Source: Halobacteriovorax marinus SJ (GTDB lineage Bacteria; Bdellovibrionota; Bacteriovoracia; Bacteriovoracales; Bacteriovoracaceae). Taken from it: DNA of 64,000 nt. Under the pieces are notes generated by a model that did no database searches, was not told the origin of the DNA, and saw only the letters and a program-made list of their open reading frames with translations. The stretch covers positions 744,001-808,000 of the forward strand of contig NC_016620.1 of the NCBI RefSeq assembly GCF_000210915.2, given 5' to 3'. The position numbers and the translations under genes are program-made. This document shows positions 34,398-52,990 of this stretch, in pieces; position 1 is the first letter of the stretch; the number at the start of each line of letters is the position of its first letter.

Positions 34398-34408
34398 GGT
34401 GGTGTACT
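34398..34408. repeat. copy of the element 1 arm-like repeat
   Basis: GGTGGTGTACT, identical to 19414-19424, sits 46 bp inside the right attachment site of element 1. The matched position at both ends supports a role in integrase binding. Confidence 0.4.
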
Positions 34409-34454
34409 GCGATTAAGAAATGCAGTAAAAACTTTGAGTTACACTCGAAGAATT

Positions 34455-34464
34455 ACCTCCACCA
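34455..34464 (+). other. attachment site between elements 1 and 2
   Basis: ACCTCCACCA is the same ten bases as the ssrA 3' end. It leads directly into the 79-bp repeat at 34458-34536. It is the likely right end of element 1 and left end of element 2. Confidence 0.65.
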
Positions 34465-34536
34465 GATCAAGCTAAGTGCTTAATAAAAAAGGGAAACTTT
34501 GGTTTCCCTTTTTTGATTGTGGCAGAAATGTGGCAA
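34458..34536 (+). repeat. 79-bp att-adjacent direct repeat, copy 1
   Basis: Matches 46607-46685 at about 75 of 79 positions. It contains the end of the ssrA-like sequence (TCCACCA), a terminator hairpin, and a TGTGGCA doublet (34517-34536) also found at 41713-41732. The doublet looks like integrase arm sites. Confidence 0.8.
34485..34514 (+). terminator. strong terminator inside the att repeat
   Basis: AAAAAAGGGAAAC and GTTTCCCTTTTTT form a perfect 13-base stem with a TTTG loop. It probably represents the original terminator that follows ssrA-type sequence, or insulates the element boundary. A near-identical hairpin is at 46634-46663. Confidence 0.8.
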
Positions 34537-34537
34537 A

Positions 34538-35566: not shown

Positions 35567-35704
35567 AAATACTCCATCGTTTCGGTTAAATGTTCGGGGT
35601 TTTTTACGCAAACTTAATCGGCATAAGAGAGTCAAATATTACTTAAGAAAAACTGTAATACTTCTTATGTATAAAACCTCTTCCTTTTACAGAAGAGGTA
35701 ATAG

Positions 35705-36856: not shown

Positions 36857-36990
36857 AAATGCTCCTTTCTTGATGAAAAGGGCTTGTTGCCTGTTACTGT
36901 CCACATTATTTGAATGTTAAAGAACAGTAGGCTTATATCAAATTGAATAAAAAATAGAAGTGTTTTCATTGTAGTTAATTCCTAAAAGGC

Positions 36991-37914
36991 TTAGTTTCGG
37001 CCACTTAGTCTTCGTCTAGAATTCTCTACAAAATACCTTTTAGCTGTTTGTTCAGTAATTTCCATGTTTTTACTATAAAAACCCTGTCTTTTTACTTTTT
37101 TATAAGTAAGTTCGAAGTATTTATCTATCGCTTCACTATACTTTCTAGACTTAAGAATCTTTAGTATTCGAAGAGACTTATCTAGATTGTAAAAATCATT
37201 TATTGCATAAATAAATGAGGAGATATTCATAAAAGCTGAATTTGATCTAATATCAATTAATGATAGTTCTTTATCTGGAGAGACAGACTTTGCTTGGTGA
37301 ATTGCTCCAAAGACAGGTATTAAGTATCTTTGTGCAGTTCTGTTTAATATTTGAATTAGATTCGCTTGTACTTCTGGAGCGGAATCACCGTAAGAAGAGG
37401 TCGAAAAGTTATCAATATATAAAATATCTATTTTCTGTTCATTTATAACTTTAAAAAGATCTTTAACCCAAATTCTAGGACAATAGGAAGCCTCATCAGA
37501 TATATCATTTCGATCAATCAAAAGAATTCTTTCTAAAAGCTCTTGTTTATCCTTCTCAGACCTTGCTTTAATATCTAGAACAGGCTCTATGGCTTCTTTA
37601 ATGTCTGACTTGTTACCTTCTGAGAGAAAAAGTAATACTCTATACCCATTTAAAGAATTTTCGGCCATAAGGCTATGAATTAGAGTTGATTTTCCTTTAT
37701 TGGTTCTTCCTAGAAGAAGATGTATATGGCCAGCTTGTAAACCGTTGTGAGCCTTTAGGAATTTATACTTCGTTTTAAATTCTTTATTATTTTCTGATAT
37801 TTTAATTGTATTAAGGGAGTATTTATTTGGAGCTTCTTTATGTTGTTTTACTTCTTCTGGAATTTCTAACATGAATCTAATATCTTTTACTTCTTTGAAC
37901 TTCCTGTTCTTCAT
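36991..37914 (-). CDS. RecA-fold ATPase, replication-type (RepA/DnaB-like)
   Basis: 307 residues. A Walker A GRTNKGKST near residues 69-77, a Walker B-like strand ILYIDNFST and a later GAIHQAK sensor strand indicate a RecA-type ATPase like those in plasmid RepA helicases and phage DNA-replication proteins. Together with the small winged-helix protein upstream it looks like the replication module of element 2. Confidence 0.7.
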   Translation of the reverse strand: MKNRKFKEVKDIRFMLEIPEEVKQHKEAPNKYSLNTIKISENNKEFKTKYKFLKAHNGLQAGHIHLLLGRTNKGKSTLIHSLMAENSLNGYRVLLFLSEGNKSDIKEAIEPVLDIKARSEKDKQELLERILLIDRNDISDEASYCPRIWVKDLFKVINEQKIDILYIDNFSTSSYGDSAPEVQANLIQILNRTAQRYLIPVFGAIHQAKSVSPDKELSLIDIRSNSAFMNISSFIYAINDFYNLDKSLRILKILKSRKYSEAIDKYFELTYKKVKRQGFYSKNMEITEQTAKRYFVENSRRRLSGRN

Positions 37915-37994
37915 GGTTAATCCTTATTTTTTAATGCTATTTCTTTTCTTATATTATTATTGCCTCAGTTAATGAGCCTATATAGGCTCATTAT

Positions 37995-38303
37995 TTAAGA
38001 AGAGTTATCTCCGCATTTTTTTGGTACGAGGAGCTTATATTGACTATTTCCTGTGTATATTGAGCCTTTTTTTACTGTTAAGAAGTCATTTTCTACCAAT
38101 TCTGTAATGAGCTTTCTTAAAGTATTATCACTGCCTATTTTAAGATCTTTCATAATACCTTTCTGGCTAGGAAAGAGTCTTTGGCCATTTCCACAATATG
38201 ACTTATATTTGAGGTAAGCGTATATTCCTATTGCTTTTAGACTAAGAGTCTTTGATTGGAAAATCTCGTTAGGTATCTGTGTAAAGTTCTTTTTTAGAGC
38301 CAT
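37995..38303 (-). CDS. winged-helix protein, replication/regulation
   Basis: 102 residues. FTQIPNEIFQSKTLSLKAIGIYAYLKYKS, LFPSQKGIMKDLKIGSDNTLRKLITELVENDFLTVKK is a winged-helix domain as found in replication-initiator and phage helix-turn-helix proteins. It overlaps the excisionase-like gene by 10 bases and precedes the RecA-fold ATPase. Confidence 0.65.
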   Translation of the reverse strand: MALKKNFTQIPNEIFQSKTLSLKAIGIYAYLKYKSYCGNGQRLFPSQKGIMKDLKIGSDNTLRKLITELVENDFLTVKKGSIYTGNSQYKLLVPKKCGDNSS

Positions 38304-38503
38304 AACTGCTCCTTAGGTTCTTCATCATGTGTTAATGATTCTATCCAGTTCAATAGGTGTTCTTCGTGAAACCTTACTAAGCGTCCTATTTTAATATAGG
38401 GAATTTCTTTTCTAAAAACAGCTGTTCTTAGTCTGGATACTTTGAGTGAGAGAAGCTGTGCAGCTTCTTCAATTGTTAATAATCTTTTGTTTGGGTTGTC
38501 CAT
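38294..38503 (-). CDS. excisionase-like helix-turn-helix protein
   Basis: 69 residues with the pattern RLLTIEEAAQLLSLKVSRLR..IPYIKIGRLVRFHEEHLLNWI, a small winged-helix DNA-binding domain typical of AlpA/excisionase proteins. Likely the recombination directionality factor for the element 2 integrase and first gene of a small operon. GGAG lies upstream. Confidence 0.8.
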   Translation of the reverse strand: MDNPNKRLLTIEEAAQLLSLKVSRLRTAVFRKEIPYIKIGRLVRFHEEHLLNWIESLTHDEEPKEQLWL

Positions 38504-38623
38504 CTTGGAGCCTCCGTAAAATAAGTCAGCATCATTGCTGAGTTACTTACAAAGGTAGAGTATGTTTTGAATGGGGAGAATCCAGCAGAATTTAAAATTT
38601 AAAATAATTTATTCTGCAGTAGC

Positions 38624-39379
38624 TTAAAGTGAGTAATTTTCAGTGGTTATCTTGTTGTAAGTTTTTATGTATCTGTTGATTCTATCTCTATTCTCTTTTA
38701 CATATTCTGATGAAAAATTGAATTTTTTGCTAAATAATTCTGGAAAGTTCTTATGGCATAAGTTGAGAAAATCAAAGTATAAGTGCCAATAGTTGGTAAG
38801 TTGGTTTTGAAAAATACCTTTGAAGGCTGTATAAAACATATATTCTGGAAAATTCTTATTCTGTGTAAATAGTGGGAGAAAACTCTCAGCCTTAGAGGTG
38901 TATGTTTTCATTTTATCATAATCAAATTGTGTCGGTATCTCTTTGATTATGTTCTCTTTTACTTCTTCACTAATTCCAAGTGATGACAGTTTTTTATCCG
39001 CTATTTCATGCTGTACTTCTTCTGCCGTAGGAAAATTTTCAATATTTTTTCTGACTTTTAAGTTGGATAGGGAATTGAAGAGAAAAGTTATTCCAAGTAT
39101 TGAATGGATATTAAGCAGAATAATATTTTTTAATTCATTATGTTGTTCTAGTAGTGTGCTAACTTGATGCTCTAGCTCTGAAAGACTTTCTTTATTAAAT
39201 GTAGGAAGCTCCGAGCATATGGATCTAAGCTCTTCTTCAATATCGTGATCATCAATATTCAATTCATCTTCATTTAAGAATGATTTTAAAATATTGAAGA
39301 AGTATTCAGGGTTAAGAATATCATTAAGATCTAATTCTTCTGTTTGTATTTCTTCTTTTTTCATAACTTTACTTATCAT
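38624..39379 (-). CDS. unknown protein beside the retron
   Basis: 251 residues, acidic at the N-terminus and helical throughout, with no motif or membrane segment I recognise. It points away from the retron; the 194 bp between its start and the retron RNA probably hold both promoters. Start uncertain between ATG at 39379 and 39364. Could be an accessory or an unrelated cargo gene. Confidence 0.5.
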   Translation of the reverse strand: MISKVMKKEEIQTEELDLNDILNPEYFFNILKSFLNEDELNIDDHDIEEELRSICSELPTFNKESLSELEHQVSTLLEQHNELKNIILLNIHSILGITFLFNSLSNLKVRKNIENFPTAEEVQHEIADKKLSSLGISEEVKENIIKEIPTQFDYDKMKTYTSKAESFLPLFTQNKNFPEYMFYTAFKGIFQNQLTNYWHLYFDFLNLCHKNFPELFSKKFNFSSEYVKENRDRINRYIKTYNKITTENYSL

Positions 39380-39573
39380 ATTATTTTTTATTCAAGTTTT
39401 GTATTTTTATAGAATATTTTTTTTCGTCATTCATGCCAACCAATGAAACATCAAGAAATCTTAAGTTGTAATTGTTAAAGTACATTATAAAGCCTCGTTT
39501 GAGGAGTGTTCATTTTTTTACTAGAAAAAATGATCATCTGTACTATTTATAAATTTCAACTAGAATTATTAAT

Positions 39574-39731
39574 GTGTAGGTGATCTAGCGTAAAAGCATA
39601 TGCTTTTGGGACTTGGTATAAAGTCTTGTTTGAATTTTTAGTTTTCACGCCAAATGAAAATTACCCTGCCAAATGCGGTCGCTTTGTCCGGCTAATTTTA
39701 TTTGGCTTTTATAAAAGTAGTGATCCTACAC
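39574..39731 (+). ncRNA. retron msr-msd RNA
   Basis: Folded by eye. The ends GTGTAGG (39574-39580) and CCTACAC (39725-39731) form the a1/a2 stem. Directly after a1 is TAGC (39586-39589), whose G (39588) is the likely branching guanosine. Two msr hairpins follow: AAAAGC-ATAT-GCTTTT at 39592-39607 and GACTT..AAGTC at 39610-39625. The msd part is a long stem with arms 39649-39663 and 39693-39706 (one bulge), plus an inner hairpin. It sits 11 bp before the effector gene and upstream of the RT, the Eco1 (Ec86) order. Confidence 0.8.
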
Positions 39732-39742
39732 TTTTAATTATA

Positions 39743-40699
39743 ATGATAAGCAATATTAGATATGGAAATCCTTATTCGTGTTCGTTAGTGGAAGAGTTAA
39801 ATAAGCTAAAGAAATATTTGGAAAACAATCCTACACTTAGAATAGAAAAAAATGCTCCAAGAATGGTAATGATTTGCGGTGCAAATCTGTTTACTGAAGA
39901 TGGAGAGTTCGTAGGACTCTCAAAGAGAAGAGAAGCATTAAAAAGTTTTATTCTTAATAAGTATAAGAATATTGTTCCTATTTTTGCCGAAGAAGTATTT
40001 GATGTTCTAGATAATCAAAACCTCTTAAATATTGAGCAGTATATGCTTGAATTTTGTGACTATATTGTAATTGTTCTTGAGAGCTATAGTAGCTTATGTG
40101 AGCTTGGTGCGTTTTCACATAATGAAAAACTTAGGAAGAAGTTAATAATCATCAATGATTCAAGGTTTAAAAATGCTAATTCATATATTAATGAGGGCCC
40201 TCTTAGAGCTGTACGAGAAGAGAATGATGGAAAATCGAGACTACTCTGGTATAAAATGATAAACCCTTCTGATCAATTAGATTCAATTAGTGATATTTAT
40301 AAAGAGTTTGATAGTTTACTTTCTAAAATTGAGAGAAAGAAGTCATCAGATATTAAACAATTTGATTTAGATTTATTTACTGATATTAGACCTGATAAAG
40401 CTAATCGCACTTATCTATTCTTGGTTCACGATATGATCCTCCTCTTAGAGCCAATTACACATAAGGAGTTAATAGATCTTTTTAAATTTTGCTTTGGAGA
40501 GAGATCTTTTGATTTCCTAAAGTTTTATCTTGGAATGTTAAATGCTATGGGGACTATAAAGTATGTAGAGAAAGAAGGTAAAAAATATTATAGGGCATTA
40601 GATAGTCATGAGTATATAAAGCATAGTTACGACTACAAAAGAAGTCGCACCATTTTTAGAGTCTTTTCTCATAGATATAGGTTGAACGATGATTTATAG
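39743..40699 (+). CDS. retron effector, nucleoside-deoxyribosyltransferase-like with C-terminal DNA-binding domain
   Basis: 318 residues from the ATG at 39743. A longer frame from 39626 exists but its first 39 codons lie mostly in the msd RNA and are rejected. The N-terminal half has the NDT-like fold: MVMICGANLF, YIVIVLESYSSLCELGAFS with Glu113 and Glu120, then a KKLIIIND strand. The C-terminal 90 residues look like a winged helix. In Eco1-type retrons this protein is the toxic effector that the RT-msDNA complex restrains. It overlaps the RT gene by 11 bases. Confidence 0.8.
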   Translation: MISNIRYGNPYSCSLVEELNKLKKYLENNPTLRIEKNAPRMVMICGANLFTEDGEFVGLSKRREALKSFILNKYKNIVPIFAEEVFDVLDNQNLLNIEQYMLEFCDYIVIVLESYSSLCELGAFSHNEKLRKKLIIINDSRFKNANSYINEGPLRAVREENDGKSRLLWYKMINPSDQLDSISDIYKEFDSLLSKIERKKSSDIKQFDLDLFTDIRPDKANRTYLFLVHDMILLLEPITHKELIDLFKFCFGERSFDFLKFYLGMLNAMGTIKYVEKEGKKYYRALDSHEYIKHSYDYKRSRTIFRVFSHRYRLNDDL

Positions 40700-41654
40700 A
40701 GAAATTTCAAAATTTTACAATATTCCTCAAGAAGAAGTTCAAGATTTTATATCTTCCAATAAAACGAAGTATTTCAGGTTTGAAATACCTAAGCGAAATG
40801 GAAAGTTTCGTACGATAACCCATCCTAGACACGAATTAAAAATAGTACAATATTGGCTTGTGGAGAAAGTGTTTTCTCGTATGAACTATGTGTCATGTTC
40901 TTCTTATGCTTATATCAAAGAGAGAGATATATTAAAGAATGCTAGAAAACATCAAAGGAATAGTCATTTTTTGAGTGTAGATTTTAGTAATTTCTTTGAA
41001 TCAATTACATTTAAATTGTTAGAGCCTTTTTTAGAAAAGTTTTATCATTCAACCGAAGTAGAGTACTCGCTAGAAGAGTTAAAAAATGTTGTTAAAAGGT
41101 CTTGTTTCGATTCATATGGTCGTTTACCGGTTGGATTTGTTACTTCTTCAATCATTTCAAATATCGTTATGTTTGATTTTGATTTAAGAATAAACGTCCT
41201 ACTTATGTCGAGGAAAATGCTCGGAAGGGTAGTATATACTCGTTATGCAGACGATGTAACGATATCTACTAATAAGGAAGGTGCTATAAGAGAAATATAC
41301 GAGTTATTTTGCAAAGGACTTATTTCTGAATTTAATAGTGAAATCACTCTTAATGCTAGCAAGACAAAAGTAAGGCATAAAAGATGTGGAAATGTTTTAG
41401 TTACTGGACTGAGAATAACTAAAGATAGCCGAATAACGATCCATAAGAACTATAAAGAGCGTGTGAAGAAATTAATTCATGATAACTATAAATCTGAAGA
41501 CCTCTCTGTTGTTTCTCGGATTATAGGTCATCTTAATTTCATAAAATATGTAGATGCAAACTATTCTCATAAGCTGAATATTAAATATTTTAGCGAGATA
41601 AATGAGCTCAAACTTAGGTATCAAGCATTGTTTAGTGCGAAGTCTTATATCTAG
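40689..41654 (+). CDS. retron reverse transcriptase
   Basis: 321 residues, near the usual length for Eco1-type RTs. Motifs in order: KRNGKFRTITHP, the retron X motif NARKH (NAxxH), SVDFSNFF (first catalytic Asp), LPVGFVTSSIISN (normally LPQG..SP), TRYADDVTIS (catalytic YADD) and the retron Y motif VTG in NVLVTGLRIT. It primes from the branching G of the msr RNA and copies msd. The Gln of LPQG is Val here, which is unusual. Confidence 0.92.
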   Translation: MIYREISKFYNIPQEEVQDFISSNKTKYFRFEIPKRNGKFRTITHPRHELKIVQYWLVEKVFSRMNYVSCSSYAYIKERDILKNARKHQRNSHFLSVDFSNFFESITFKLLEPFLEKFYHSTEVEYSLEELKNVVKRSCFDSYGRLPVGFVTSSIISNIVMFDFDLRINVLLMSRKMLGRVVYTRYADDVTISTNKEGAIREIYELFCKGLISEFNSEITLNASKTKVRHKRCGNVLVTGLRITKDSRITIHKNYKERVKKLIHDNYKSEDLSVVSRIIGHLNFIKYVDANYSHKLNIKYFSEINELKLRYQALFSAKSYI

Positions 41655-41712
41655 ATTTTCAATCTATCAGTAAAAATTTTGTTAAATCTCCTACGAAACT
41701 CCACCACTTTCT

Positions 41713-41732
41713 TTGTGGCAGAAATGTGGCAA
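41713..41732 (+). repeat. TGTGGCA doublet, arm-like site
   Basis: A 20-base stretch with TGTGGCA twice (11-bp period), identical to 34517-34536 and nearly so to 46666-46685. It lies about 150 bp before the 17-bp ssrA-end copy. Confidence 0.55.
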
Positions 41733-41882
41733 TCCGTAAAATTACCCTCTAATTTCAAATATTGTGGACAATAACTAACAACAAGCCCAAGTTTGTTAAG
41801 ACGATAAAACTATTATGTTTTATCGTGGTTTATATTGGATTACTTACATTTGGTGTAGTTGGTAGAAATAGCACCTCCGCCG

Positions 41883-41899
41883 TCCCGCCACCTCCACCA
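41883..41899 (+). other. attachment site between elements 2 and 3
   Basis: TCCCGCCACCTCCACCA is identical to the last 17 bases of ssrA (19224-19240), including part of its T-arm. It marks the right end of element 2. The 460-bp gap 41655-42114 around it has no supported gene. Confidence 0.75.
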
Positions 41900-42114
41900 A
41901 CTGCAACGCTGAACGAACACCAGTTAAGCAGTTGGATGTACATTTGAAATTCTTCGATTTTCCCCAAAGTTCGCCTAGCATTCGCGGTAAAACAGGTGTG
42001 ACCACTTGGGTGATCGAATTCCTTCACTTAAGAAATCTTAATCGAAAAACATTTATTGCATTTGGAATATGTTCCGATATAGGAAATTACTAATTTATAT
42101 TTGGAGAATATTCA

Positions 42115-43839
42115 ATGTCTGAAGCTGAAGAGAGGAAGCCTCGTTTAAAGAATTTAAAAATTAAAAACTTTCGTTCAATAGGAAAGACTGAAGTTTCAAT
42201 TGATTTAGATGATATCGTTGTTCTAATAGGACCCAACAATGTAGGAAAATCATCTATATTGAACGCTTATGAGCTGATTATGAAAGATGGCTCTAAAGAG
42301 TGTTCTGTAAAACTGGAAGATTTTCATTTGAAGAAAGAGCCTGAAAGTGAAGAAGAATACTTAGAGATTACACTTGAAACGATTGTATATGACAATTCTC
42401 CTGGAGATGATTGGGTAGAAGAGATTGAAGATGAAAATGTTGTAAAAGAAAAGTGGATTGCTACAAAACCTGGGAAACTTGTGCGAGTGGGCTACAATGT
42501 GAAAGACAATAAATGGGCAAGTGTTGATCAGAAAAAAGACAAGGTTCCTTGGGGAGCTGCAAACGTAGCAAACTCTAGGAGACCATTACCTCATAAAATT
42601 AGTCCTTTTGATACTCCTGAAAAGCAAACAAAGGAAATCACCGATTTAGTTTCAGAAATTCTTGATGAAAAACTCAGAGAAGATAAAGAGGTTGATGGGG
42701 AAGTTGTAGAGTCAGAATATTCAAAATTATTAGAATCTATTAAATCAACCAAAGATAAAATTATTAATGAAAATAAAGAGGTTATTGAAGAACTTGAGAA
42801 AGAGTTTACAGAGTTAATAGGAAAAGTTTTTCCAAAAAATATAGTGAAATTGACTCAGAACTTAGAAAATATGTCGGAATTGAAATTGGATATTTTTAAA
42901 GAGCATTTAAGTGTTTTAATGGGGCCAGAAAATGGTTTCCTTTCGGAAATTGCTCGACAAGGAAGCGGTGCTCGAAGAACTGTTATGTGGACCGCTTTAA
43001 AAATTTTAGCTGAGAAGAAAAAGAGTGAATTGAAGAGTGAGAGGCCACACGTTTTGATTATTGATGAACCTGAAATCTGCTTACATCCCTCAGCGATTAG
43101 AGAGTCATGTAATGTCTTGTATGAAATACCAGAACAAAAAAATTGGCAAGTAATGTTAACTACTCACTCACCAGTTTTTGTAGATCTATCAAAGGACAAC
43201 ACTTCAATTGTGAAAGTTTACAAAGATGTTGAAAATGAAGTGATAAAATCTACAACCGTCTTTAGAACCAGTGAAGTGAACCTTTCAGCAGATGATAAAA
43301 CAAACCTCAAGTTGTTAAATATATGTGACTCTTATTTTACTGAATTTTTTTTTAGTCGAAAAATTATAGTTGTAGAGGGAGATACTGAATATACAGCATT
43401 TCAATGTATAAAAAATAAAAATACAGACCTATTTAAAGATGTTCATATAATTAGAGCTAGAGGAAAAGCAGTAATTGTTTCAATTTGTAAAATCTTAAAT
43501 AAATTTAATGCTCCTTATAGTGTTCTGCATGATGCAGATACAGAGTTGACGCAAAATAGTAAGAAAAATCCTATGTGGGCGATTAATGAGAAGATATATA
43601 ATGAGGCGAAGAAGTCTCCAAAAAGTAAGGTGATTGCATCCTTAAGTGACTTTGAAGAGGCGATGTTTAATGAGTCAGTAACAAAAGATAAACCATTTTT
43701 TACTTACTCTAAGTTGGAAAGCTCAGTTGAATTAACAAGTAAGTGTCATTCTTTATTAAGTTACCTTATTGGAGGTGATGAGAAAATCCCAGAAGGGTTT
43801 GTTGAGTGGAATGAAATTGAGGAACTGAAGCAAAAATGA
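42115..43839 (+). CDS. OLD-family ATPase/TOPRIM endonuclease
   Basis: 574 residues, start supported by GGAG. It has an AAA/ABC-type ATPase with Walker A GPNNVGKSS (39-47), signature-like QGSGARR (282-288), Walker B HVLIIDEPE (312-320) and the TTHSP histidine (349-353). A TOPRIM domain follows, with Glu421 (IIVVEGDTEY) and Asp473/Asp475 (LHDAD). OLD proteins are ATP-regulated DNA nucleases used in phage exclusion; GajA of Gabija belongs here, but no UvrD-type GajB follows. So this is either a stand-alone OLD or part of an unnamed pairing with the genes 183 bp downstream. Confidence 0.85.
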   Translation: MSEAEERKPRLKNLKIKNFRSIGKTEVSIDLDDIVVLIGPNNVGKSSILNAYELIMKDGSKECSVKLEDFHLKKEPESEEEYLEITLETIVYDNSPGDDWVEEIEDENVVKEKWIATKPGKLVRVGYNVKDNKWASVDQKKDKVPWGAANVANSRRPLPHKISPFDTPEKQTKEITDLVSEILDEKLREDKEVDGEVVESEYSKLLESIKSTKDKIINENKEVIEELEKEFTELIGKVFPKNIVKLTQNLENMSELKLDIFKEHLSVLMGPENGFLSEIARQGSGARRTVMWTALKILAEKKKSELKSERPHVLIIDEPEICLHPSAIRESCNVLYEIPEQKNWQVMLTTHSPVFVDLSKDNTSIVKVYKDVENEVIKSTTVFRTSEVNLSADDKTNLKLLNICDSYFTEFFFSRKIIVVEGDTEYTAFQCIKNKNTDLFKDVHIIRARGKAVIVSICKILNKFNAPYSVLHDADTELTQNSKKNPMWAINEKIYNEAKKSPKSKVIASLSDFEEAMFNESVTKDKPFFTYSKLESSVELTSKCHSLLSYLIGGDEKIPEGFVEWNEIEELKQK

Positions 43840-44022
43840 TTTTTTTGGAACATTTTCAATCCCCTTAGCCTTTTTGTAGTAACCGAATGTAATTTACAAG
43901 ATAGGATATTACAAAACGTGTGGTATCGCTTTTTATGAGTGAGTTGAAGTTTACATGGTTATATGCGGTATGCAAATGATCACTTAGAAGCTTAAAAAGG
44001 GGATTACTAAGGGGAGAGAGGA

Positions 44023-44709
44023 ATGACAAGTTTAAAAGTGAAGCGTGAGATTGTTGAGAGACGAATCAACAGAATCAAAGAGTATGTTTTTGAATCTAAT
44101 GAACTAGAGCAGGTATATATTGATGACCAAAAAATGATTAGTAGATTATGTGATGACACTAATTCTTTAAAAATTGCTTTATATGATTACTTCGCTAGGA
44201 TTAGCTGGATTGAAATTGATAACCAATTAAATAAAAGTGAACAACTTTTTCGTAGGAGTATTTTCGGTGATATTCATATTATGGTTGAAGATATTAATTT
44301 AGGTGAGGAGTCTTCTTTAAAGGTCTATAAAACTCTGTTTGATGAAGAGCTTGAAGAGGGAATAATTCACTTTTTGCCACTCCTTGGGAAGAATAATAGA
44401 AACTTAAAGGCTGGAGTTGCTACCGAAAATCATGGTTTTGGGTATCATTATCATTATTGTAAAGGAAAAAATATTGCTCGTCATGATCGAACGACATTGC
44501 AATTTACTAATGATGTAAAAGACATTGGAAAAAATGATTTTACCATGTACTCCGGTCAGCATGGATCAGGGATAAAAGTAGTTGCAGATGAAGTTAATGG
44601 TAAAATAAGAACGTCTTTAATTAGTAAAAATAAGGATTTGGTAAAAAAGTATAAAAAAAATTGGTTAAAGGTTTCTAAGGACTTTGAGGAATTTAAATTG
44701 TTCTCGTAG
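44023..44709 (+). CDS. unknown protein, first gene of a three-gene module
   Basis: 228 residues, with a good ribosome site (AGAGAGGA). No known motif. It has an unusual aromatic and His-rich run (HGFGYHYHYCKGKNIARHD, near 137-155) that could bind metal or a nucleotide, then a basic C-terminus. It is followed after 28 bp by the zinc-ribbon gene and then the nuclease gene without a gap. The tight order suggests one system, function unknown. Confidence 0.5.
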   Translation: MTSLKVKREIVERRINRIKEYVFESNELEQVYIDDQKMISRLCDDTNSLKIALYDYFARISWIEIDNQLNKSEQLFRRSIFGDIHIMVEDINLGEESSLKVYKTLFDEELEEGIIHFLPLLGKNNRNLKAGVATENHGFGYHYHYCKGKNIARHDRTTLQFTNDVKDIGKNDFTMYSGQHGSGIKVVADEVNGKIRTSLISKNKDLVKKYKKNWLKVSKDFEEFKLFS

Positions 44710-44737
44710 TTAGAAATTGAAAAAATGGTGAAATATT

Positions 44738-44983
44738 TTGTTTAAGATATCTACAAAAGTAACAGGTGACTTTGATTTGGGAATTGATAAGCAATGGGTA
44801 GAAATTTCATGCCCTCAGTGTTTATTGGAAGAGTCTGTTCAAATCAAAGATTTATTAAATGAAAAGCTAATAATATGTAGAGGATGTAAAATCTTGATTC
44901 GGCCAGTTGATGAATGGGATGACGCCAAAAGACAGATCAAAAAAATAAATGAACAGTTTAAGAATATATTCAAAGGATTCTAG
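44738..44983 (+). CDS. zinc-ribbon protein
   Basis: 81 residues from a TTG; no ATG is available in frame. CPQC near 27-30 and CRGC near 49-52 make a four-Cys zinc ribbon, followed by a charged helix. Its stop abuts the ATG of the nuclease gene (0 bp), so translation is coupled. It could be an adaptor or nucleic-acid-binding subunit of the nuclease. Confidence 0.55.
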   Translation: MFKISTKVTGDFDLGIDKQWVEISCPQCLLEESVQIKDLLNEKLIICRGCKILIRPVDEWDDAKRQIKKINEQFKNIFKGF

Positions 44984-45976
44984 ATGGACTATCAAATAGC
45001 TCAAAGAACAAGATACTTACTACAGACGAGAGTTAGGAGAGTTAAAAATGCTGGAGAAAACCAGTATCAAGAACAATTAAAATTTTTCTTACAATTCCTG
45101 AACTCAAACATAGTATTTTCTTCCGTTTTAAAAGAGCTTGAGGGGACAAGCACATTAGAAAAAGAGAGCTTTTTGGAAGCATTAAATAATGGGGAAGGGT
45201 ATAACTTTGAATGTGAGTTAGATTATATCTTTGCCTCTTATCTTGGGTTGAAGTTCCTTGTTGATGTAGACATGAATAGATTTACAAGCTCTTTGATCGC
45301 TGCGTTTAGTACAGCGAATGGAGGAGGTAGACATCAAAGTAATATTGATGAAATGCTAGAGGATGTAAATACCTATTGGTTGAATTATTTGTATGAGTTC
45401 TTGGACGAATCAATTGATAATCGAAATAGTATCTTGTTTGTTTTGAAAAAGTATAAACAAAATGCTGAATGGTTTAGAAAAAAGCGGTTGTTGAATATTG
45501 CAAACGATGGTGCTGTCTATGGGAAAAAAGGAGAGAAAGGGCTTGCCTTAGATCTTTACGAATCAATACATAATGATGGGATAGATTTTACTATAGAACC
45601 TTCTTCAGCTTCTGGTGAGGTAGACTTAATTGCCAATCAGTCAGGAGAAGAAAGAGTCGTTCTCGATGCGAAGTATATAGGGGAAGGTGAAAGCTCTTCG
45701 CAAATAAAAACTAAGGTCGTTAAGGCTTTTAGACAGGTTCATGATTATTGTAATGATTATAATACCTCTAATGGTTATATATTATTTTATATAAATGCAG
45801 AGGTTGCATTAGATATTGAATCAGATGAGTTAGATGGTTTCAGAGTTGTGAACCTTAATGGAAGGGCTTTATTTTTTATTAATGTTGATATTTATGAGAA
45901 TGAAAAGTCCGCATCACAAAGAAAAGCACTTGAGCGTGTTTCTATAGTTAAGACTGACTTGATAAAAGACAATTAA
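44984..45976 (+). CDS. PD-(D/E)XK nuclease of a three-gene module
   Basis: 330 residues. The C-terminal half carries a restriction-enzyme-like core: Glu184 on the first helix (KKGEKGLALDLYE), Asp214 (SGEVDLIAN) and Asp228-Ala-Lys230 (RVVLDAKY), followed by an FRQVHDYC helix and strand YILFYI. The N-terminal 170 residues are helical and unassigned, possibly for target recognition. It ends convergently with a small membrane-protein gene (4-base overlap). Confidence 0.65.
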   Translation: MDYQIAQRTRYLLQTRVRRVKNAGENQYQEQLKFFLQFLNSNIVFSSVLKELEGTSTLEKESFLEALNNGEGYNFECELDYIFASYLGLKFLVDVDMNRFTSSLIAAFSTANGGGRHQSNIDEMLEDVNTYWLNYLYEFLDESIDNRNSILFVLKKYKQNAEWFRKKRLLNIANDGAVYGKKGEKGLALDLYESIHNDGIDFTIEPSSASGEVDLIANQSGEERVVLDAKYIGEGESSSQIKTKVVKAFRQVHDYCNDYNTSNGYILFYINAEVALDIESDELDGFRVVNLNGRALFFINVDIYENEKSASQRKALERVSIVKTDLIKDN

Positions 45977-46152
45977 ATCAAGGAATGTTTTTTATCAGTT
46001 AGTCGTTGTGTGAATTTTTCTAGAGAAGGTAGCCCCTTTTGAACTTTTATAAGAGCTTCTTTCTTGATGACCTTACTCGAAAAATTCAAAACACTAGCTC
46101 CTGTAATTATCGTAAAAATTATCGCAAGAAATATCTCAATTATTGCACGCAT
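45973..46152 (-). CDS. small single-pass membrane protein
   Basis: 59 residues. MRAIIEIFLAIIFTIITGASVLN is one hydrophobic segment, followed by a basic tail. The ATG at 46152 has AGGA about 7 bases upstream, in the end of the broken recombinase gene, so it was probably co-transcribed with it. No family recognised. Confidence 0.4.
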   Translation of the reverse strand: MRAIIEIFLAIIFTIITGASVLNFSSKVIKKEALIKVQKGLPSLEKFTQRLTDKKHSLI

Positions 46153-46153
46153 A

Positions 46154-46609
46154 CTATTTTTCCTTTTTAAGTTCTCTTAATATGATGGCGCGGACAGAAG
46201 GCCCATGCCATTTGCCTTTGGTTTTGGTTAATCGTTTTTTATCATTTAAGTAATTGGCGATATTTGCATATCCCCATCCCTCGGCTCGAAGTTTAAGCAT
46301 GAGTTGAAGTGTGGCCCGCTCGCCTTTGTGGGGAACGAGTTTGTTTTTCTGAACTTTTCAGCCAAATCTTGGAATGGGAGGTTTGCGAACTTCTTTTTTG
46401 ATTCCAAGAAGTCTTATGGCATCACTAATGGCAGCTCGTGACCATCTTGATTTAGTTACCTTGTGAATTTGATTACTGGAAAGGTCTTTTTCAAGGTACA
46501 AAGTCCGCAAAAGCTCAGGATTTTGAATGGGCTTATTGAAGAAATGTGTTATAAAAATAGGAACATATAGATTTGCGTTATAGAGTTCGCTTAGCTCTTC
46601 GCAAGGTCC
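46154..46609 (-). pseudogene. broken serine-recombinase C-terminal fragment
   Basis: The minus strand reads an open stretch of about 150 codons without a start, cut at the att repeat. It contains a resolvase-like helix-turn-helix (IHKVTKSRWSRAAISDAIRLLG) and, after a stop TGA at 46358-46360, KNKLVPHKGER and LRAEGWGYANIANYLN, then KGKWHGPSVRAII. These match the recombinase domain of large serine recombinases. The TGA stands where Trp (TGG) is expected after PRFG. A one-base change plus truncation has inactivated it. Confidence 0.65.
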
Positions 46610-46685
46610 ACCAGATCAAGCTAAGCGCTTAATAAAAAAGGGAAATTTTGGTTTCCCTTTTTTGATTGTGGCAGAAGTGTGGTAA
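46607..46685 (+). repeat. 79-bp att-adjacent direct repeat, copy 2
   Basis: Matches 34458-34536 with about four differences, including the 13-base terminator stem (one change in the loop region) and the TGTGGCA doublet (second copy changed to TGTGGTA). The ssrA-like part is reduced to GTCCACCA. Likely right end of element 3. Confidence 0.8.
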
Positions 46686-46735
46686 TTTTTTTGATAGCAT
46701 CTACGTCATCCTTTATAGTCTCCTATCTGTATTAT

Positions 46736-48232
46736 TTAAAATTTCTTGTTGAATTTTCTAAAAGCCTGTAAAGATTGAAAAAGTATTGCAGAGTTTAATG
46801 CTGAATGAAATATATATAATCCTTTGATGTTAATAGTATCGTCTTTTAAAAATTGGAAGGTTACTAGGTATTTATAGAAATCAGTAAAAATACCTAAAAA
46901 AGGTTCACTTTTTAAAAGTAGAAAACCTTTATCCCAATTTGAAAAAAGTAGACTAAAAAATAATGATAAAAATATTGGTCTTATGATGCTGAATCCATTT
47001 CCAGTTAGCTCATTAAAATTTAATATAAGTAAGTTCGTAAGTTTCTTGTATATTGGTAGCGTGGAATAGCTTATTTGTTTAACTTGATAGTGTCTTTCTA
47101 TATCAAAGAAAAGTTCAGTATTTAAGATGTCCCTGTGTCGGAAGTATATATTCTTTAGATCACGATAAATATTTACTTTCGCTTCGTAAGACTCAGATTT
47201 GTCTTCTCTCGAATAAATTCGAGGGTGAGACCCCCATTCAACAAGGTCTAGATTCATCTCTTTTATATTGGAGTTAATAAAGAAAACATCTGTATTTTCT
47301 AGGTTAGTGTTACCAAATTCGGTATTAGATAAATTTGAATTAAAGAACTTTATTGAGCTTTCAGGCTCTAAGTATATTTTCCTGATATTGAGTTCATTGT
47401 TCTTCTTCTTATTAATGAAACTAAGCTCCATCTTTATTTTAATCGAACTGATTGAAAGTTCTTTGAAAGAGTTAATTGTAATTTTACTATATCCTGTTCC
47501 AAATAAATGCTCATAGTAGAGGTCCTCAGGAATGTCATCTTGAGTTAGAGATTCAAAGTGAACGATTGATCTTGGAAGCGCTAAGTCTAAAGATTTAATC
47601 GAGTTGTCAGTTAACTCTAGTTCCGTCTCGGAGGGGATGAATAACTGTAGGTCATCGCTATCAAGGTTTCTTATGTAAATATAAATTTTTTTAAGTTCTG
47701 TTTCATATGTTCGTATTTTAACGTTATCTATTCTATTGTTTGATATAGTCAGGTTACTTGAAATTCTATTTTCTATTTTTAGAGACTTGATCTTATTATT
47801 GTTTACGATGAAGACTTCTTCGTTGATAGATGTAAAATCTAAGTCAGATAGATCACATGATTCTATTATTATTTTCATATGTAAATCTATAAAGCTTAGG
47901 TTGTTTTTAAACGTACATTGATTGAACTCTAGTTTATTCTCTTCATTGCTCGAGTTATCATCTCTGATCTCAATTAAGGGTTCAAAGTGGACAGAGGAAA
48001 ATTTAATATTATATTTAGAACTCTTTAGAAATAATAATCCTTTATTTTTTTCAAATGTGTGGCCAGTAATTACACAGTTTTTAAGTATAACAGTATTTTT
48101 ATTTCCATTTAGTTCTAAGTGAGAAGAGCCATTAATAAAGTTAATCAAATCACTGCCTAGTGTCTGTTGTCTTTGAATATAATTTAAGTCTTCCTGTATT
48201 TTTGAAAATGGTAACGTTAGCATAGTTAGCAA
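46736..48232 (-). CDS. pentapeptide-like repeat protein with C-terminal membrane segments
   Basis: 498 residues. From about residue 30 to 330 there are repeated short strands with a Leu/Phe/Ile every five residues and Asn between (LKIENRISSNLTISNNRIDNVKI, NSNLSNTEFGNTNLENTDVFF), like a right-handed beta-helix of pentapeptide type. Residues about 400-480 hold two or three hydrophobic segments. Such proteins occur in defence islands as possible pore-forming effectors, but this is inference. It is alone on the minus strand. Confidence 0.5.
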   Translation of the reverse strand: MLTMLTLPFSKIQEDLNYIQRQQTLGSDLINFINGSSHLELNGNKNTVILKNCVITGHTFEKNKGLLFLKSSKYNIKFSSVHFEPLIEIRDDNSSNEENKLEFNQCTFKNNLSFIDLHMKIIIESCDLSDLDFTSINEEVFIVNNNKIKSLKIENRISSNLTISNNRIDNVKIRTYETELKKIYIYIRNLDSDDLQLFIPSETELELTDNSIKSLDLALPRSIVHFESLTQDDIPEDLYYEHLFGTGYSKITINSFKELSISSIKIKMELSFINKKKNNELNIRKIYLEPESSIKFFNSNLSNTEFGNTNLENTDVFFINSNIKEMNLDLVEWGSHPRIYSREDKSESYEAKVNIYRDLKNIYFRHRDILNTELFFDIERHYQVKQISYSTLPIYKKLTNLLILNFNELTGNGFSIIRPIFLSLFFSLLFSNWDKGFLLLKSEPFLGIFTDFYKYLVTFQFLKDDTINIKGLYIFHSALNSAILFQSLQAFRKFNKKF

Positions 48233-48396
48233 TATATCACTAATAGGAATAATATCTAGCTGGAAACTTGAGCAGATGCTTTTATATTCTTTAAGAAATC
48301 TTGATTTATCTATACTAATTTAAAGTCAAGAAAACTTAATTTTGTAATCCCATGCTGTGGGATTAAAATATGGTGTGTATTTACTAAAGGAAGGTT

Positions 48397-49257
48397 ATGT
48401 CAAAAATTAAAGTCGGAACTTATTTTTTAGGTCGAGTAGTAAAATATGGAGTTCTTGATAATGAGAAATTAGTTGAGGCAATTACCAAAGGGAGTAAAGT
48501 CAGTTCGAGAAGCTATAACTGGTTAATCACTAATGTTAAACATGTAAAAAAAACTAATATTGAATATGTTTTTGGAAACCTTTCTAAATATACACCTGAA
48601 GGAGAGACAGTTATTGTTGATGAGGGAACTAGGAGGACTCACGACGACCATACTGAAAACCTTGCTCTTGCATCCGTACCGTTTGTATATTTACCTAAGT
48701 ACTCTGGAATTTGCTATTTAAGACTATGGAATCAAATAGATATAAACTCCTTTAAGGGGAGAGTTGGAGACATAATTGAAAATTATTTTAGTAATTTTTT
48801 TGTAGGTGTAGAAATTAATGATATCTCAGAGAACTATGCGTTCCTAAAAAAAGCCAAAAAGTTTTCAACAATTAATAAAATAGACTGTTCAATTCAACAA
48901 CCAAATCCACTATATGGTGATATCTGGAAGCATTTGAAAGAGTATCTAATTTCTAGAAACTCGAAAGAGTTAAGTATTTCAGAGGAGTCTAAAGATCAGT
49001 ATGGAATAGTTACAAATCTAAATGGTGGTCATAGTGATATTGAACTCAGTTTAACAGATGCTGCAATTCGTATGGCCCTGGCGGGATATGGAAAAGGAAG
49101 TGTTACCGGGATTTTGGATGGTGTTCCTGAAACAATAAAAACTAAAGATGATGTAATTAAAATTAAATTCCCTAAAGAACCAGATCCTGAAGAATTAGCT
49201 TTAGAGGCGCAAAAGAATTTTATGAGAATTAATAAAGTGCGTGGTTTAAAGCATTGA
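48397..49257 (+). CDS. unknown soluble protein, RexA-like position and size
   Basis: 286 residues, strong ribosome site (AAGGAAGG). Mixed alpha/beta, no membrane segment. I find no motif match. It is immediately followed, with a 4-base overlap, by a small membrane protein; the pair (286 + 147 residues) mirrors the lambda exclusion pair RexA (279) and RexB (144). The comparison rests on size, order and the partner only. DUF4747-type proteins are another possibility. Confidence 0.45.
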   Translation: MSKIKVGTYFLGRVVKYGVLDNEKLVEAITKGSKVSSRSYNWLITNVKHVKKTNIEYVFGNLSKYTPEGETVIVDEGTRRTHDDHTENLALASVPFVYLPKYSGICYLRLWNQIDINSFKGRVGDIIENYFSNFFVGVEINDISENYAFLKKAKKFSTINKIDCSIQQPNPLYGDIWKHLKEYLISRNSKELSISEESKDQYGIVTNLNGGHSDIELSLTDAAIRMALAGYGKGSVTGILDGVPETIKTKDDVIKIKFPKEPDPEELALEAQKNFMRINKVRGLKH

Positions 49258-49697
49258 AGCTAAAAAAAGTATGTGACAAATTTTTAGTATCACCAGAACT
49301 TCTAATTTATTTAGCTTGGACTTTTTTTCCTTCTGATCATGAGCTATTTAATCTTGTTAACAAAAAAATAATAGAACATAACGATAAATTACTAGGAATT
49401 TCATCATCATCATTTATTTTAATTCAAATTGGAGTTCTTTTTCCATTTAAAGATGGAGCAAATCTGATGAAAGGGTTTCCAAAAAAACAAGAACTATATG
49501 AAACCTGTCTAGCTGGTGCTCTCCATTATATATTATTCAGTTTACTATTAGTAGCATCATTTTTTCATGAAGTGATTGTTAAAATAGGAGTCAATAAATA
49601 CTATCCTATTGTTTCAGTCTTTGGTCTTTTGGTATTGATTATTACTACAGGTATGGCATTTATACATGTAAATATTCTTCTAAGAGATAGTGGTTGA
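49254..49697 (+). CDS. small membrane protein, RexB-like
   Basis: 147 residues from a TTG overlapping the previous stop codon. About three hydrophobic segments: around residues 60-75, 92-113 and 123-142. The last one (TTGMAFIHVNILL) faintly resembles the end of lambda RexB (FIHICILVF). Membrane depolarisation upon phage infection would be its role if it is RexB-like. Coupled translation with the 48397 gene is clear; the family call is tentative. Confidence 0.45.
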   Translation: MKLKKVCDKFLVSPELLIYLAWTFFPSDHELFNLVNKKIIEHNDKLLGISSSSFILIQIGVLFPFKDGANLMKGFPKKQELYETCLAGALHYILFSLLLVASFFHEVIVKIGVNKYYPIVSVFGLLVLIITTGMAFIHVNILLRDSG

Positions 49698-49787
49698 AGA
49701 GTTATTTTTTTCTAGCATTTCATTGTCATTGGTTGTCACTTGTAGTCTAATATATGAGTAAAATATTAATTATTTAGGAGTCACTTT

Positions 49788-49967
49788 ATGAGTGAACGGT
49801 GGTTGTCTGTTGTTGAAATAGCAGAGCATCTAGGGGTTTCTAAGGAAACAATTTATCGCTGGCTTGAGAAAGGAAAGATTCCTGCTCATCGAGTTGGGAA
49901 GCTGTGGAAGTTTAAGGCCACTGAAGTTGATAAATGGATCACTGCTGGTGGAGCAGAAGAGAATTAG
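49788..49967 (+). CDS. small helix-turn-helix (excisionase-family) protein upstream of hsdM
   Basis: 59 residues: MSERWLSVVEIAEHLGVSKE, TIYRWLEKGKIPAHRVGKLW, then KFKATEVDKWI. This is the MerR/excisionase winged-helix domain. Such small genes often precede type I restriction-modification operons. A TTAGGAG ribosome site is present. It lies 37 bp before hsdM and may control the operon. Confidence 0.8.
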   Translation: MSERWLSVVEIAEHLGVSKETIYRWLEKGKIPAHRVGKLWKFKATEVDKWITAGGAEEN

Positions 49968-50004
49968 GGCCCGAATTGAATTGGTAATGGAATTGGAGAA
50001 TTAA

Positions 50005-51747
50005 ATGACTCAAAAAGTAACGCAAGCTGAAATTAATAAAATCCTATGGGATGCCTGTGACACCTTCAGAGGTGTTGTCGATGCAGGAGAGTACAAGAAT
50101 TACATCCTAACGATGTTGTTCATTAAATACCTATCAGATACCTACGAAGAGAAGTACGAAGCCTATAGCGAGCAATTTAAGGGCAATGAGACCAGAATTA
50201 AAAGGGCCTTAGAGAAAGAAAACTTTGTACTGCCTGATGGTTGTCACTTCAATGATATTTATAAGCAAAAAGAAGAGAAGAATATCGGTGAGATTATCGA
50301 TGTTGCTCTTGAGAAGATTGAAAATGCTAACAAGGAAAAACTTGAGAACGTATTTAGAAACGTAAGTTTTAACTCTGAAGCTAATCTAGGAAAAACTAAG
50401 AGTAGGAACGCTAGACTTAAGCACCTTCTAGATGACTTCAATAGTCCTAAACTAAATATGAGAAAGTCTCACATTGGGAATATGGATGTTATTGGTAATG
50501 CCTATGAGTACTTGATCGCAAATTTTGCTGCTGGGGCAGGAAAGAAGGCTGGAGAGTTCTATACTCCTTCAGAAGTATCTCAATTACTTGCGATGCTTGT
50601 TAAACCAGAGAAGGGATCGAGAATATATGACCCGACTTGTGGTTCAGGATCTCTATTAATTCGTTGTGCAGAACAGTTAACAAAAAATGGAATTAATGAT
50701 TTTCAAATTTATGGTCAGGAGATTACTGGAGCTACTTGGGCTTTAGCGAAGATGAATATGTTCCTTCATGGTTTTGATCGCTCAGTCATTGAAAATGGCG
50801 ATACTATTAGAAACCCAATTCATTTAGAGAATGATGAGCTAATGACTTTTGATGTGGTTGTGGCCAATCCTCCTTTTAGTTTAGATAAGTGGGGAATTGA
50901 TGAAGCTAAGAGTGATTCTTATGGAAGATTTAATTACGGTATTCCTCCAAAGAGTTATGGAGAGTTGGCCTTTGTTCAACACATGGTCGCATCTTTAAAC
51001 GAGAATGGGCGATGTGCAGTGGTGCTTCCTCATGGTGTTCTTTTTAGAGGTTCGGCAGAAAAGAGAATTAGAGAAGGTTTAATTAATGATGACCTTTTAG
51101 AAGCAGTTATTGGCCTACCATCAGGTTTATTCTTTGGAACAGGTATTCCAGCCTCAATCATGGTTTTTAATAAGAAAAAGTCAGCCGATAGAAAAGACAA
51201 GGTCTTATTTATTAATGGTGATCTTGAATATCAAGAAGGAAAAAATCAAAACAAGTTAAGAGACCAGGATATAAATCATATCGTCGCAAATTATGTCGAG
51301 TTTAAAACAGAAGGTCTTTATAGACATGAGGACAAGCATTACTCAAGGGTAGTTGAATTAGATGAGATTAAAGAGAATGACTATAACCTAAATATTCGTC
51401 GTTACGCTGATACATCAGCACCTCCTGAAATATTTGATGTAAAGGCGATCCTTAATGGCGGAATCCCTAAATATGAAATTGAGGATGGTTATATCCAAGA
51501 TATTATTGATGGCTTTGATGTTTCAGTAGTCTTTGATGAAAGAGATAAAGAATATTATGTCTTTAAAAATGAAATAGACTCAAAAGAAAAAATTCGTGAA
51601 GTCATGGGGGATGTTGATCAAGCAATTATTTCTCAAGTAGAGAGGTGGTGGGAAAAATACTCAACTGCTTTAAGAGGTATTGAGTCTCAATGTGTTGAAG
51701 CCGAAAAAGAAATGAACTCTTTTCTTAAGGAATTGAGTTATGAGTAA
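50005..51747 (+). CDS. hsdM: type I restriction-modification methyltransferase subunit
   Basis: 580 residues. N-terminal helical HsdM domain (about 10-150), then an N6-adenine methyltransferase with SAM-binding DPTCGSG (209-215) and catalytic NPPF (288-291). It forms the methylase core with HsdS. Its last 8 bases overlap hsdS. Full length and intact. Confidence 0.95.
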   Translation: MTQKVTQAEINKILWDACDTFRGVVDAGEYKNYILTMLFIKYLSDTYEEKYEAYSEQFKGNETRIKRALEKENFVLPDGCHFNDIYKQKEEKNIGEIIDVALEKIENANKEKLENVFRNVSFNSEANLGKTKSRNARLKHLLDDFNSPKLNMRKSHIGNMDVIGNAYEYLIANFAAGAGKKAGEFYTPSEVSQLLAMLVKPEKGSRIYDPTCGSGSLLIRCAEQLTKNGINDFQIYGQEITGATWALAKMNMFLHGFDRSVIENGDTIRNPIHLENDELMTFDVVVANPPFSLDKWGIDEAKSDSYGRFNYGIPPKSYGELAFVQHMVASLNENGRCAVVLPHGVLFRGSAEKRIREGLINDDLLEAVIGLPSGLFFGTGIPASIMVFNKKKSADRKDKVLFINGDLEYQEGKNQNKLRDQDINHIVANYVEFKTEGLYRHEDKHYSRVVELDEIKENDYNLNIRRYADTSAPPEIFDVKAILNGGIPKYEIEDGYIQDIIDGFDVSVVFDERDKEYYVFKNEIDSKEKIREVMGDVDQAIISQVERWWEKYSTALRGIESQCVEAEKEMNSFLKELSYE

Positions 51748-52978
51748 AGTGAAGTTAGGGAATCACATCAAAAGCTATGCAGGTGGAACTCCTTCGAGAG
51801 GTAACATGGATTATTATCGAAATGGAACGATTCCTTGGGTAAAGTCTGGAGAGGTTTGTAGAAAGTATATCACCTCTGTTGAAGAAAAAATTACTGAGGA
51901 AGCGGTTCAAGGTTCTTCAGCGAAATGGTTTCCTGAAAATTCTGTTTTAGTAGCTTTGTATGGAGCGACAGCAGGCCAAGTATCGATAACGAAAATAAAA
52001 GGAACCTCTAACCAAGCGGTGTTATCAGTAAATGGTTTAGATGATTTTGATAATGAATATTTATACTATCTACTAACTCACTCTACTCCAGAATTGTTAG
52101 TTAAAGTGCAAGGATCGGGGCAACCAAATTTAAGTAAAAAAATTATTGATGAATTACAAGTCGAGTTAAAAGAGTTAGCTGAGCAAAAGAAAATCGCAGA
52201 AATTCTCACATCAGTAGATAAAGTCATTGAGTTAACTGAGATTGAAATAGAAAAACTTAAAAACCTTAAAAAAGGGATGATGCAAGACCTTTTAACTAAA
52301 GGGATTCGGCATACTAAGTTTAAAGATACTCCCATTGGGAAGATTCCTGAGAGTTGGGAGTGTTCTCAAATTAAAGATTTAATTAAAAATGGATTCATTG
52401 AAAAAGTACAAGATGGAAACCACGGGGGAGCATACCCTAGAGTTTCGGATTTTACAGAGAAAGGCATCCCGTTTGTTTCTGCTAAGAATTTACATGAGCA
52501 TGGATATGTAAAATTTAATGAATGTCCCAAGTTGCCTGAGAGTTATCTACCAAAGCTGAGAATTGGTTTTGGTAAGCCTGGAGATGTTATTTTTGCTCAT
52601 AATGCTACAGTTGGTCCAACAGCTTATGTTCCAAACTCTGGACAAGATTTTATTGTAAGCACATCTACAACCTTATATAGAAGCAATTCTGAAAAACTAG
52701 ATAATTATTATCTTTATGCAAGTTTATTATCACCGCTTTTTCAGACGCAAATTTCTAAAGTAATGGGGCAAACAACTAGAAACCAGGTTCCAATTACAGC
52801 ACAGAAAGAGATGTATTTGACGGTGCCACCTTTAAATGAACAAAACGAAATTAATAATGCTGTTAAAGCAATTTTGGGTACTTTAATAAGTAAAGAAGAG
52901 AAACTACAGAAGTTAGTTAGTTTAAAAAAAGGTTTGATGCAAGACCTCCTTACTGGAAAAGTAAGAGTGAAAGTCTAA
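51740..52978 (+). CDS. hsdS: type I restriction-modification specificity subunit
   Basis: 412 residues with two target-recognition domains, each starting with a K-L-G/P-W-like strand and ending in a conserved helix (LAEQKKIAEILTSVDKVIELTEIEIEKL.., and LNEQNEINNAVKAI..). The repeated KKGMMQDLL/KKGLMQDLL motifs mark the duplicated spacer helices. This determines which bipartite DNA site is methylated. Overlaps hsdM by 8 bases, 12 bp before hsdR. Confidence 0.92.
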   Translation: MSKVKLGNHIKSYAGGTPSRGNMDYYRNGTIPWVKSGEVCRKYITSVEEKITEEAVQGSSAKWFPENSVLVALYGATAGQVSITKIKGTSNQAVLSVNGLDDFDNEYLYYLLTHSTPELLVKVQGSGQPNLSKKIIDELQVELKELAEQKKIAEILTSVDKVIELTEIEIEKLKNLKKGMMQDLLTKGIRHTKFKDTPIGKIPESWECSQIKDLIKNGFIEKVQDGNHGGAYPRVSDFTEKGIPFVSAKNLHEHGYVKFNECPKLPESYLPKLRIGFGKPGDVIFAHNATVGPTAYVPNSGQDFIVSTSTTLYRSNSEKLDNYYLYASLLSPLFQTQISKVMGQTTRNQVPITAQKEMYLTVPPLNEQNEINNAVKAILGTLISKEEKLQKLVSLKKGLMQDLLTGKVRVKV

Positions 52979-52990
52979 ACGGAGATAAAT

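Follow-up and report, generated by a model that had tools for sequence, protein, structure and literature searches.

Analysis of the window, the whole 64,000-nucleotide stretch of Halobacteriovorax marinus SJ DNA, revealed that a small zinc-ribbon gene and the PD-(D/E)XK-type nuclease gene directly after it are a tight, conserved two-gene unit linked across phyla. We read this pair as a mobile two-component nuclease defence module, in which the nuclease would be the effector and the ribbon its recognition or control subunit, and give this reading a probability of about 0.5. The original prediction had joined both genes to an upstream gene for a 228-aa protein in a three-gene module; the ribbon and nuclease part stands, and the 228-aa part falls, that protein being a near-orphan absent from all 27 relatives of the pair. 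The finding is sharpened to two genes, with the 228-aa gene dispensable for first experiments.

Gene organization

ORF reading bore out the three predicted ORFs, with gaps of 28 nt between the 228-aa and ribbon ORFs and 0 nt between the ribbon and nuclease ORFs (Table 1). At ~32% GC, the chance of an uninterrupted run at a given place is ~1e-8 for 228 codons and ~4e-12 for 330 codons; for 81 codons it is 0.0016, so that this run is unremarkable by itself. The ribbon ORF is a real gene because it recurs before the nuclease, carries invariant cysteines and shows dN < dS in all pairs compared.

None of the three proteins gave a significant family match in Pfam, PADLOC, NCBIfam or PHROGs: PADLOC 2023 had no family for any of them, and NCBIfam 2026 returned sub-threshold matches only. 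Sequence searches of the PDB also gave no significant match for any of the three. The expectation that the set would match no nameable system therefore held for ribbon and nuclease, which matched no named family. No library searched has a name for the pair, and no description of it was found in the literature.

Table 1. Positions in the window of the conserved pair, its neighbours and the repeats of the element
Feature	Position	Strand	Remarks
Intact tmRNA gene	18856-19240		
Left att-type repeat, 82 nt	34458-34539	+	94% identical to 46607-46688
Putative integrase of the element, tyrosine-recombinase type	35705-36904	-	Read from sequence; C-terminal FHDLRHTFASHFMM motif
Internal att-like site	41700-41732	+	TCCACCA, then core TGTGGCAGAAATGTGGCAA at 41714-41732
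tmRNA 3'-end copy	41882-41899	+	TCCCGCCACCTCCACCA; 17/18 nt match to 19223-19240
Stand-alone OLD-type ATPase/TOPRIM nuclease	42115-43839	+	PADLOC Old E 1.2e-86; Pfam OLD-like_TOPRIM
Near-orphan, 228 aa (ORF 1 of the candidate module)	44023-44709	+	ATG start, AAGGGGAGAGAGGA just before start; HGFGYHYHYC run; outside the conserved pair
Zinc-ribbon partner, 81 aa	44738-44983	+	TTG start; CxxC knuckles C25-x2-C28 and C47-x2-C50; invariant D58
PD-(D/E)XK-type nuclease, 330 aa	44984-45976	+	ATG start; helical N-terminal half ~1-197, core ~184-302
Right att-type repeat, 82 nt	46607-46688	+	Core TGTGGCAGAAGTGTGGTAA; closes the segment

Recurrence and linkage of ribbon and nuclease

A tblastn search of plasmids identified four distant relatives of the nuclease, full- or part-length, and a profile from their alignment, run on 84,980 species genomes, added 23 further loci, giving a total of 27. 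These relatives are spread over candidate division WOR-3, Anaerolineae (Chloroflexota), Betaproteobacteria and Actinomycetota, with identities to the window nuclease mostly of 22–31% and, for Anaerolineae, of 39% over a part. Within the phylum of the window, the profile search found the nuclease in 1 of 291 genomes, and no relatives were found in viral contigs and phages. A weak match in genome G017 (E 8.7e-4, 39% over 51 aa) was dropped, as the profile search did not recover it.

The predicted linkage of the two genes was upheld: of the 24 relatives with a readable upstream side, 21 had a CxxC-CxxC ribbon ORF immediately before the nuclease, counted as loci and not as independent events, since most are from Streptomyces, L027 and L028 share one genome, and L005 and L026 one species. 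Left out of this count were L013 and L031, which lie at a contig edge, and L030, where the 5' end of the nuclease gene is gone. The ribbon-positive loci are L004, L005, L010, L011, L012 and L014–L029 (21 of all 27). Among the carriers are candidate division WOR-3, Anaerolineae, Variovorax, Zoogloea, Achromobacter, Polaromonas, Streptomyces, Sinosporangium and Streptacidiphilus. The distance from ribbon stop to nuclease start ranged from -5 to +8 nt (17 loci, the window among them), and dN was below dS for both genes, showing purifying selection. The three relatives without a ribbon (L006, L007 and L032) form one Streptomyces/Kitasatospora-type clade; a ribbon is thus not required in every case.

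Several copies are damaged. The nuclease is truncated, frame-shifted or interrupted at L011, L026, L027/L028 and L029, all with an intact upstream ribbon, and it is frequently broken at Streptomyces loci; at L021 the ribbon reading frame is shifted and the nuclease is full-length. Where an assembly is a draft, a frameshift may stem from sequencing error. An apparent 725-aa fusion at L011 (Anaerolineae) was ruled out, since it arises from an insertion between the nuclease start and the remainder.

These patterns bear on the main rival to the defence module, and the next after it, which is that the genes form a toxin-antitoxin (addiction) pair whose upstream ribbon would bind and silence the downstream nuclease and keep the mobile element in the cell. 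The small gene comes first and the larger enzyme second, overlapping or abutting, the pair is carried on plasmids, transposons and islands, and the broken nucleases beside intact ribbons fit a nuclease that is the costly part. A strict antitoxin role is nevertheless disfavoured because a full-length nuclease is kept without any ribbon at L006, L007 and L032 and with a damaged one at L021; the ribbon also has no recognisable DNA-binding autoregulator domain. We regard this explanation as unlikely, with a modest chance of being correct.

The 228-aa protein

Searches for the 228-aa protein covered the 27 loci, plasmids, phages, viral contigs and the 291 genomes of the phylum. By tblastn it was missing at every one of the 27 relative loci, and it had no relatives in the plasmid collection, the phage collection or the viral contigs, and among the 291 genomes it was found in its own alone. 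A second copy in genome G126 was ruled out as a spurious match to PurH, and the AlphaFold2 model of the protein was unusable (pLDDT 35). The nuclease is thus regularly found without the 228-aa protein (0 of 27 loci) and not regularly without the ribbon, which accompanies it at 21 of the 24 testable loci.

The 28-nt gap, the common strand and the lack of a terminator-like site between the 228-aa and ribbon genes would suit a three-gene module in which the 228-aa protein is a specificity or sensor subunit of the pair in this lineage. Its absence from all 27 pair relatives and from every other genome and collection searched, together with upstream genes that vary from place to place at the loci examined, makes such a third component very unlikely. 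The 228-aa protein is a near-orphan unlinked to the pair, and its gene and the OLD gene are most likely separate cargo in one segment.

The att-bounded segment in the window

The genes had been predicted to lie as cargo between an OLD gene and an element end, and both flanks were confirmed, one by the PADLOC Old match and the other by an 82-nt direct repeat beyond the nuclease; ribbon and nuclease do occupy a cargo position in an att-bounded island. The two copies of the repeat were the only ones in the genome by that search and contain a tmRNA-like TCCACCA, a terminator-like hairpin and the core TGTGGCAGAAATGTGGCAA. The core of the internal site is an exact copy of the one at 34518, with 0.02 chance matches expected in the window. 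Related repeats were present in three genomes of the same genus, some with a tmRNA 3' end attached. The genus thus seems to have an integration hotspot at its tmRNA gene: at L043–L045 and at the window sites, repeats of the tmRNA 3' end and of the core would delimit several islands in a stack.

Judged from these repeats, two islands may be stacked at the tmRNA gene, 34458-41700 and 41900-46607. To the first belong the integrase gene and the genes of an St85-type retron (NDT_II-A plus RT), and to the second the genes for OLD, the 228-aa protein, the ribbon and the nuclease. Relatives of the OLD protein, 45–47% identical, occur on Exiguobacterium and Bacillus plasmids. The St85-type (II-A) retron occupies 39626-41654 with genes for its effector (NDT) and its reverse transcriptase; the retron RNA was not located, and Rfam returned no match in 34000-54000. 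Beside the integrase and inside the left att repeat, 34538-35635 encodes a 365-aa protein that starts with a SIR2-like motif, VFILGAGSSASYGFPTG, and has no Pfam match at E 0.01.

Further genes were observed outside the repeats. Three linked genes on the minus strand (29953-32427) encode nucleoside deoxyribosyltransferase-like and HNH_5-like proteins, both sub-threshold, and a 190-aa protein, a possible further defence set. Just outside the right repeat, 46736-48232 on the minus strand encodes a 498-aa protein that weakly matches pentapeptide repeats and is hydrophobic towards its C terminus. Past the right repeat lies a type I restriction-modification operon (50005-56209), and two separate Schlafen AlbA_2 domain proteins are encoded downstream of it (57408-58379 and 61469-62671).

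Surroundings of the pair in other genomes

The neighbours of the pair repeatedly included mobile-element or defence genes. Only at L010 was a restriction-modification (RM) gene seen beside the pair, a type IIG RM gene that precedes it by 118 nt. An AbiJ_NTD4/PDC-S32 gene lies ~20 nt upstream of the pair at L014, an LmuA/Avs1a-like MBL gene is near it at L015, and a GajB-like helicase gene and a weak ZacB/DrmC match are near it in the plasmid region L004. No known defence gene was present in the stretch read at Streptomyces loci L016, L018 and L024. Defence neighbours vary by place, and their tally is a locus listing and not an enrichment over a background rate. The pair looks autonomous and mobile because its upstream gene varies at each place examined outside Streptomyces.

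Two neighbouring proteins were recorded. At L017 (2473-5715) and at similar Streptomyces loci, the gene just before the pair encodes a TniQ-like protein of 1080 aa in which the helicase-associated (HA) domain is repeated six times. At L015 (7006-10955), a gene for a 945-aa protein without a family match is directly followed by the LmuA/Avs1a-like MBL-fold gene, and these two might be a separate defence pair.

At several Streptomyces loci (L017, L019, L020, L021 and L027/L028) the pair comes right after tniA-tniB-tniQ in the same direction, and a different TniA/TniB adjoins it in Variovorax (L012). This arrangement would suit a transposition helper for Tn5053/Tn7-like elements, with the nuclease acting like TnsA, also a PD-(D/E)XK protein, and the ribbon as adaptor. 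In the window, however, the integrase of the element is of the tyrosine type, and the surroundings of the pair showed no Tni gene; tblastn found none in L004, L010, L011, L014, L015 and L022 either, and the nuclease has no TnsA family match. A transposition role is accordingly highly improbable.

Sequence and predicted structure of the two proteins

The four cysteines and D58 were invariant across 11 ribbon sequences, and the C-terminal tail of the ribbon is probably helical. Its profile matched only generic zinc-ribbon or GATA-type entries of the PDB (best E 0.0013).

The nuclease carries the motif pattern E...GExD...DxK...QxxxY, with E184, S208-x-S210-G211-E212-x-D214, D228-x-K230 and Q251-x3-Y255 invariant or near-invariant among 16 aligned members. 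Its AlphaFold2 model (mean pLDDT 81) has helices to residue 197, strands at 214–218 and 224–232, a helix at 238–258 and then more strands, a predicted order that is the one expected for a PD-(D/E)XK core; the loop 206–220 beside the active site was poorly modelled. Foldseek with this model gave nothing significant, the top three hits being EcoT38I (two chains) and McrC at E 0.04–0.07; EcoT38I ranked first (E 0.042), McrC 6ut6_G second (E 0.052) and EcoO109I sixth (E 0.75). Aligned by hhalign to a profile of six McrC proteins of the window's bacterial family, the nuclease scored 29.6 over the DxK...Q..Y stretch against a maximum of 21.5 in 100 column shuffles, with an HHalign probability of only 7%. 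The nuclease call thus draws on motifs and weak fold matches, since family matches were below significance. Alignment with OLD by hhalign gave nothing, and a pPIWI_RE_Z identity was dropped because one member's match (E 0.012) was not repeated in nine members re-scanned.

A weak PHROG match to "CRISPR/Cas system associated" (E 0.004) and the QxxxY motif give the core a weak RecB/Cas4-like resemblance. With carriers that are frequently mobile elements, this could indicate a housekeeping or repair accessory of such elements, for example in DNA-end processing, neither defensive nor toxic. The patchy occurrence (1 of 291 phylum genomes) and the restriction, AbiJ and MBL defence neighbours speak against that role, which we consider quite unlikely.

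Proposed function

Under the defence reading, the small protein would fold around one zinc ion, and its helical tail would probably dock onto the helical N-terminal half of the nuclease. The ribbon, as recognition or control subunit, would bring the nuclease to foreign nucleic acid or free it there, and the C-terminal PD-(D/E)XK domain (E184, D214, D228, K230, Q251xxxY255) would cut that nucleic acid, so that the pair might serve the cell as a compact defence of the restriction-like or abortive-infection sort. What the analysis shows are the two genes and their tight linkage across phyla, the invariant metal-ligand and catalytic-type residues, purifying selection, and mobile or defence surroundings that recur; zinc binding, the physical complex, nucleic-acid cleavage and the anti-phage purpose are inferred.

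The defence reading is favoured because the linkage is tight, the cysteine and nuclease motifs are invariant or near-invariant, dN is below dS, the model is PD-(D/E)XK-like, and the nuclease weakly resembles EcoT38I and McrC. The RM, AbiJ, MBL and Tni neighbours elsewhere and the retron, OLD gene and att repeats in the window also argue for it. It is weakened because family matches are below significance, the neighbours differ, three Streptomyces loci have no known defence gene in the stretch read, the Streptomyces nuclease is often broken, and three relatives lack a ribbon. A more specific version, a stand-alone two-component anti-phage system of several phyla whose separate ribbon licenses or recognises for an McrC-like nuclease without GTPase or methyltransferase, we advance tentatively, at rather less than an even chance. 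If true, a compact and hitherto unnamed two-gene nuclease system is common to WOR-3, Chloroflexota, Betaproteobacteria, Actinomycetota and this lineage.

Comparison with known systems

McrC of McrBC (PF10117) shares with the window nuclease the C-terminal PD-(D/E)XK core, with DxK and then Q..Y. The nuclease scored 13.0 bits for the Pfam McrC family against a cut-off of 23.9, no DUF2357 N-terminal domain was detected, and no McrB-type GTPase gene adjoined the window pair or figured among the genes read around the pair at L004, L010, L012, L014 and L015. The nuclease core is best described as McrC- or restriction-like and not as a McrBC member, since both a GTPase gene and a family-level score are lacking. 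The type II restriction enzymes EcoT38I and EcoO109I are PD-(D/E)XK proteins of a length near that of the window nuclease (TM ~0.2, not significant), and no methyltransferase adjoins the pair in the window segment 41900-46607.

Shedu SduA (PF14082) is likewise a defence nuclease of the PD-(D/E)XK kind, and is not known to have a ribbon partner. A Shedu identity was ruled out, as the nuclease had no Pfam match to the SduA_C domain and hhalign showed no relation (E 0.82). YnfU and ECs_2282 are small four-Cys ribbons too, to which the window ribbon's NCBIfam match was sub-threshold (18 of 36 bits); we know of no pairing of these small zinc-binding proteins with a nuclease.

CnuC of type I-A/II CoCoNuT systems, an McrC homologue with a zinc ribbon built in and with GTPase and coiled-coil partners, resembles the pair in that a zinc ribbon and a PD-(D/E)XK nuclease come together in it (PMC11090510). 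The pair differs from CnuC in that its ribbon is a separate small protein and the GTPase is absent. Mobile two-gene nuclease modules are a familiar kind, of which this pair is an unnamed one; if the defence reading is true, a separate zinc ribbon here controls or guides a restriction-type nuclease without a motor or a methylase.
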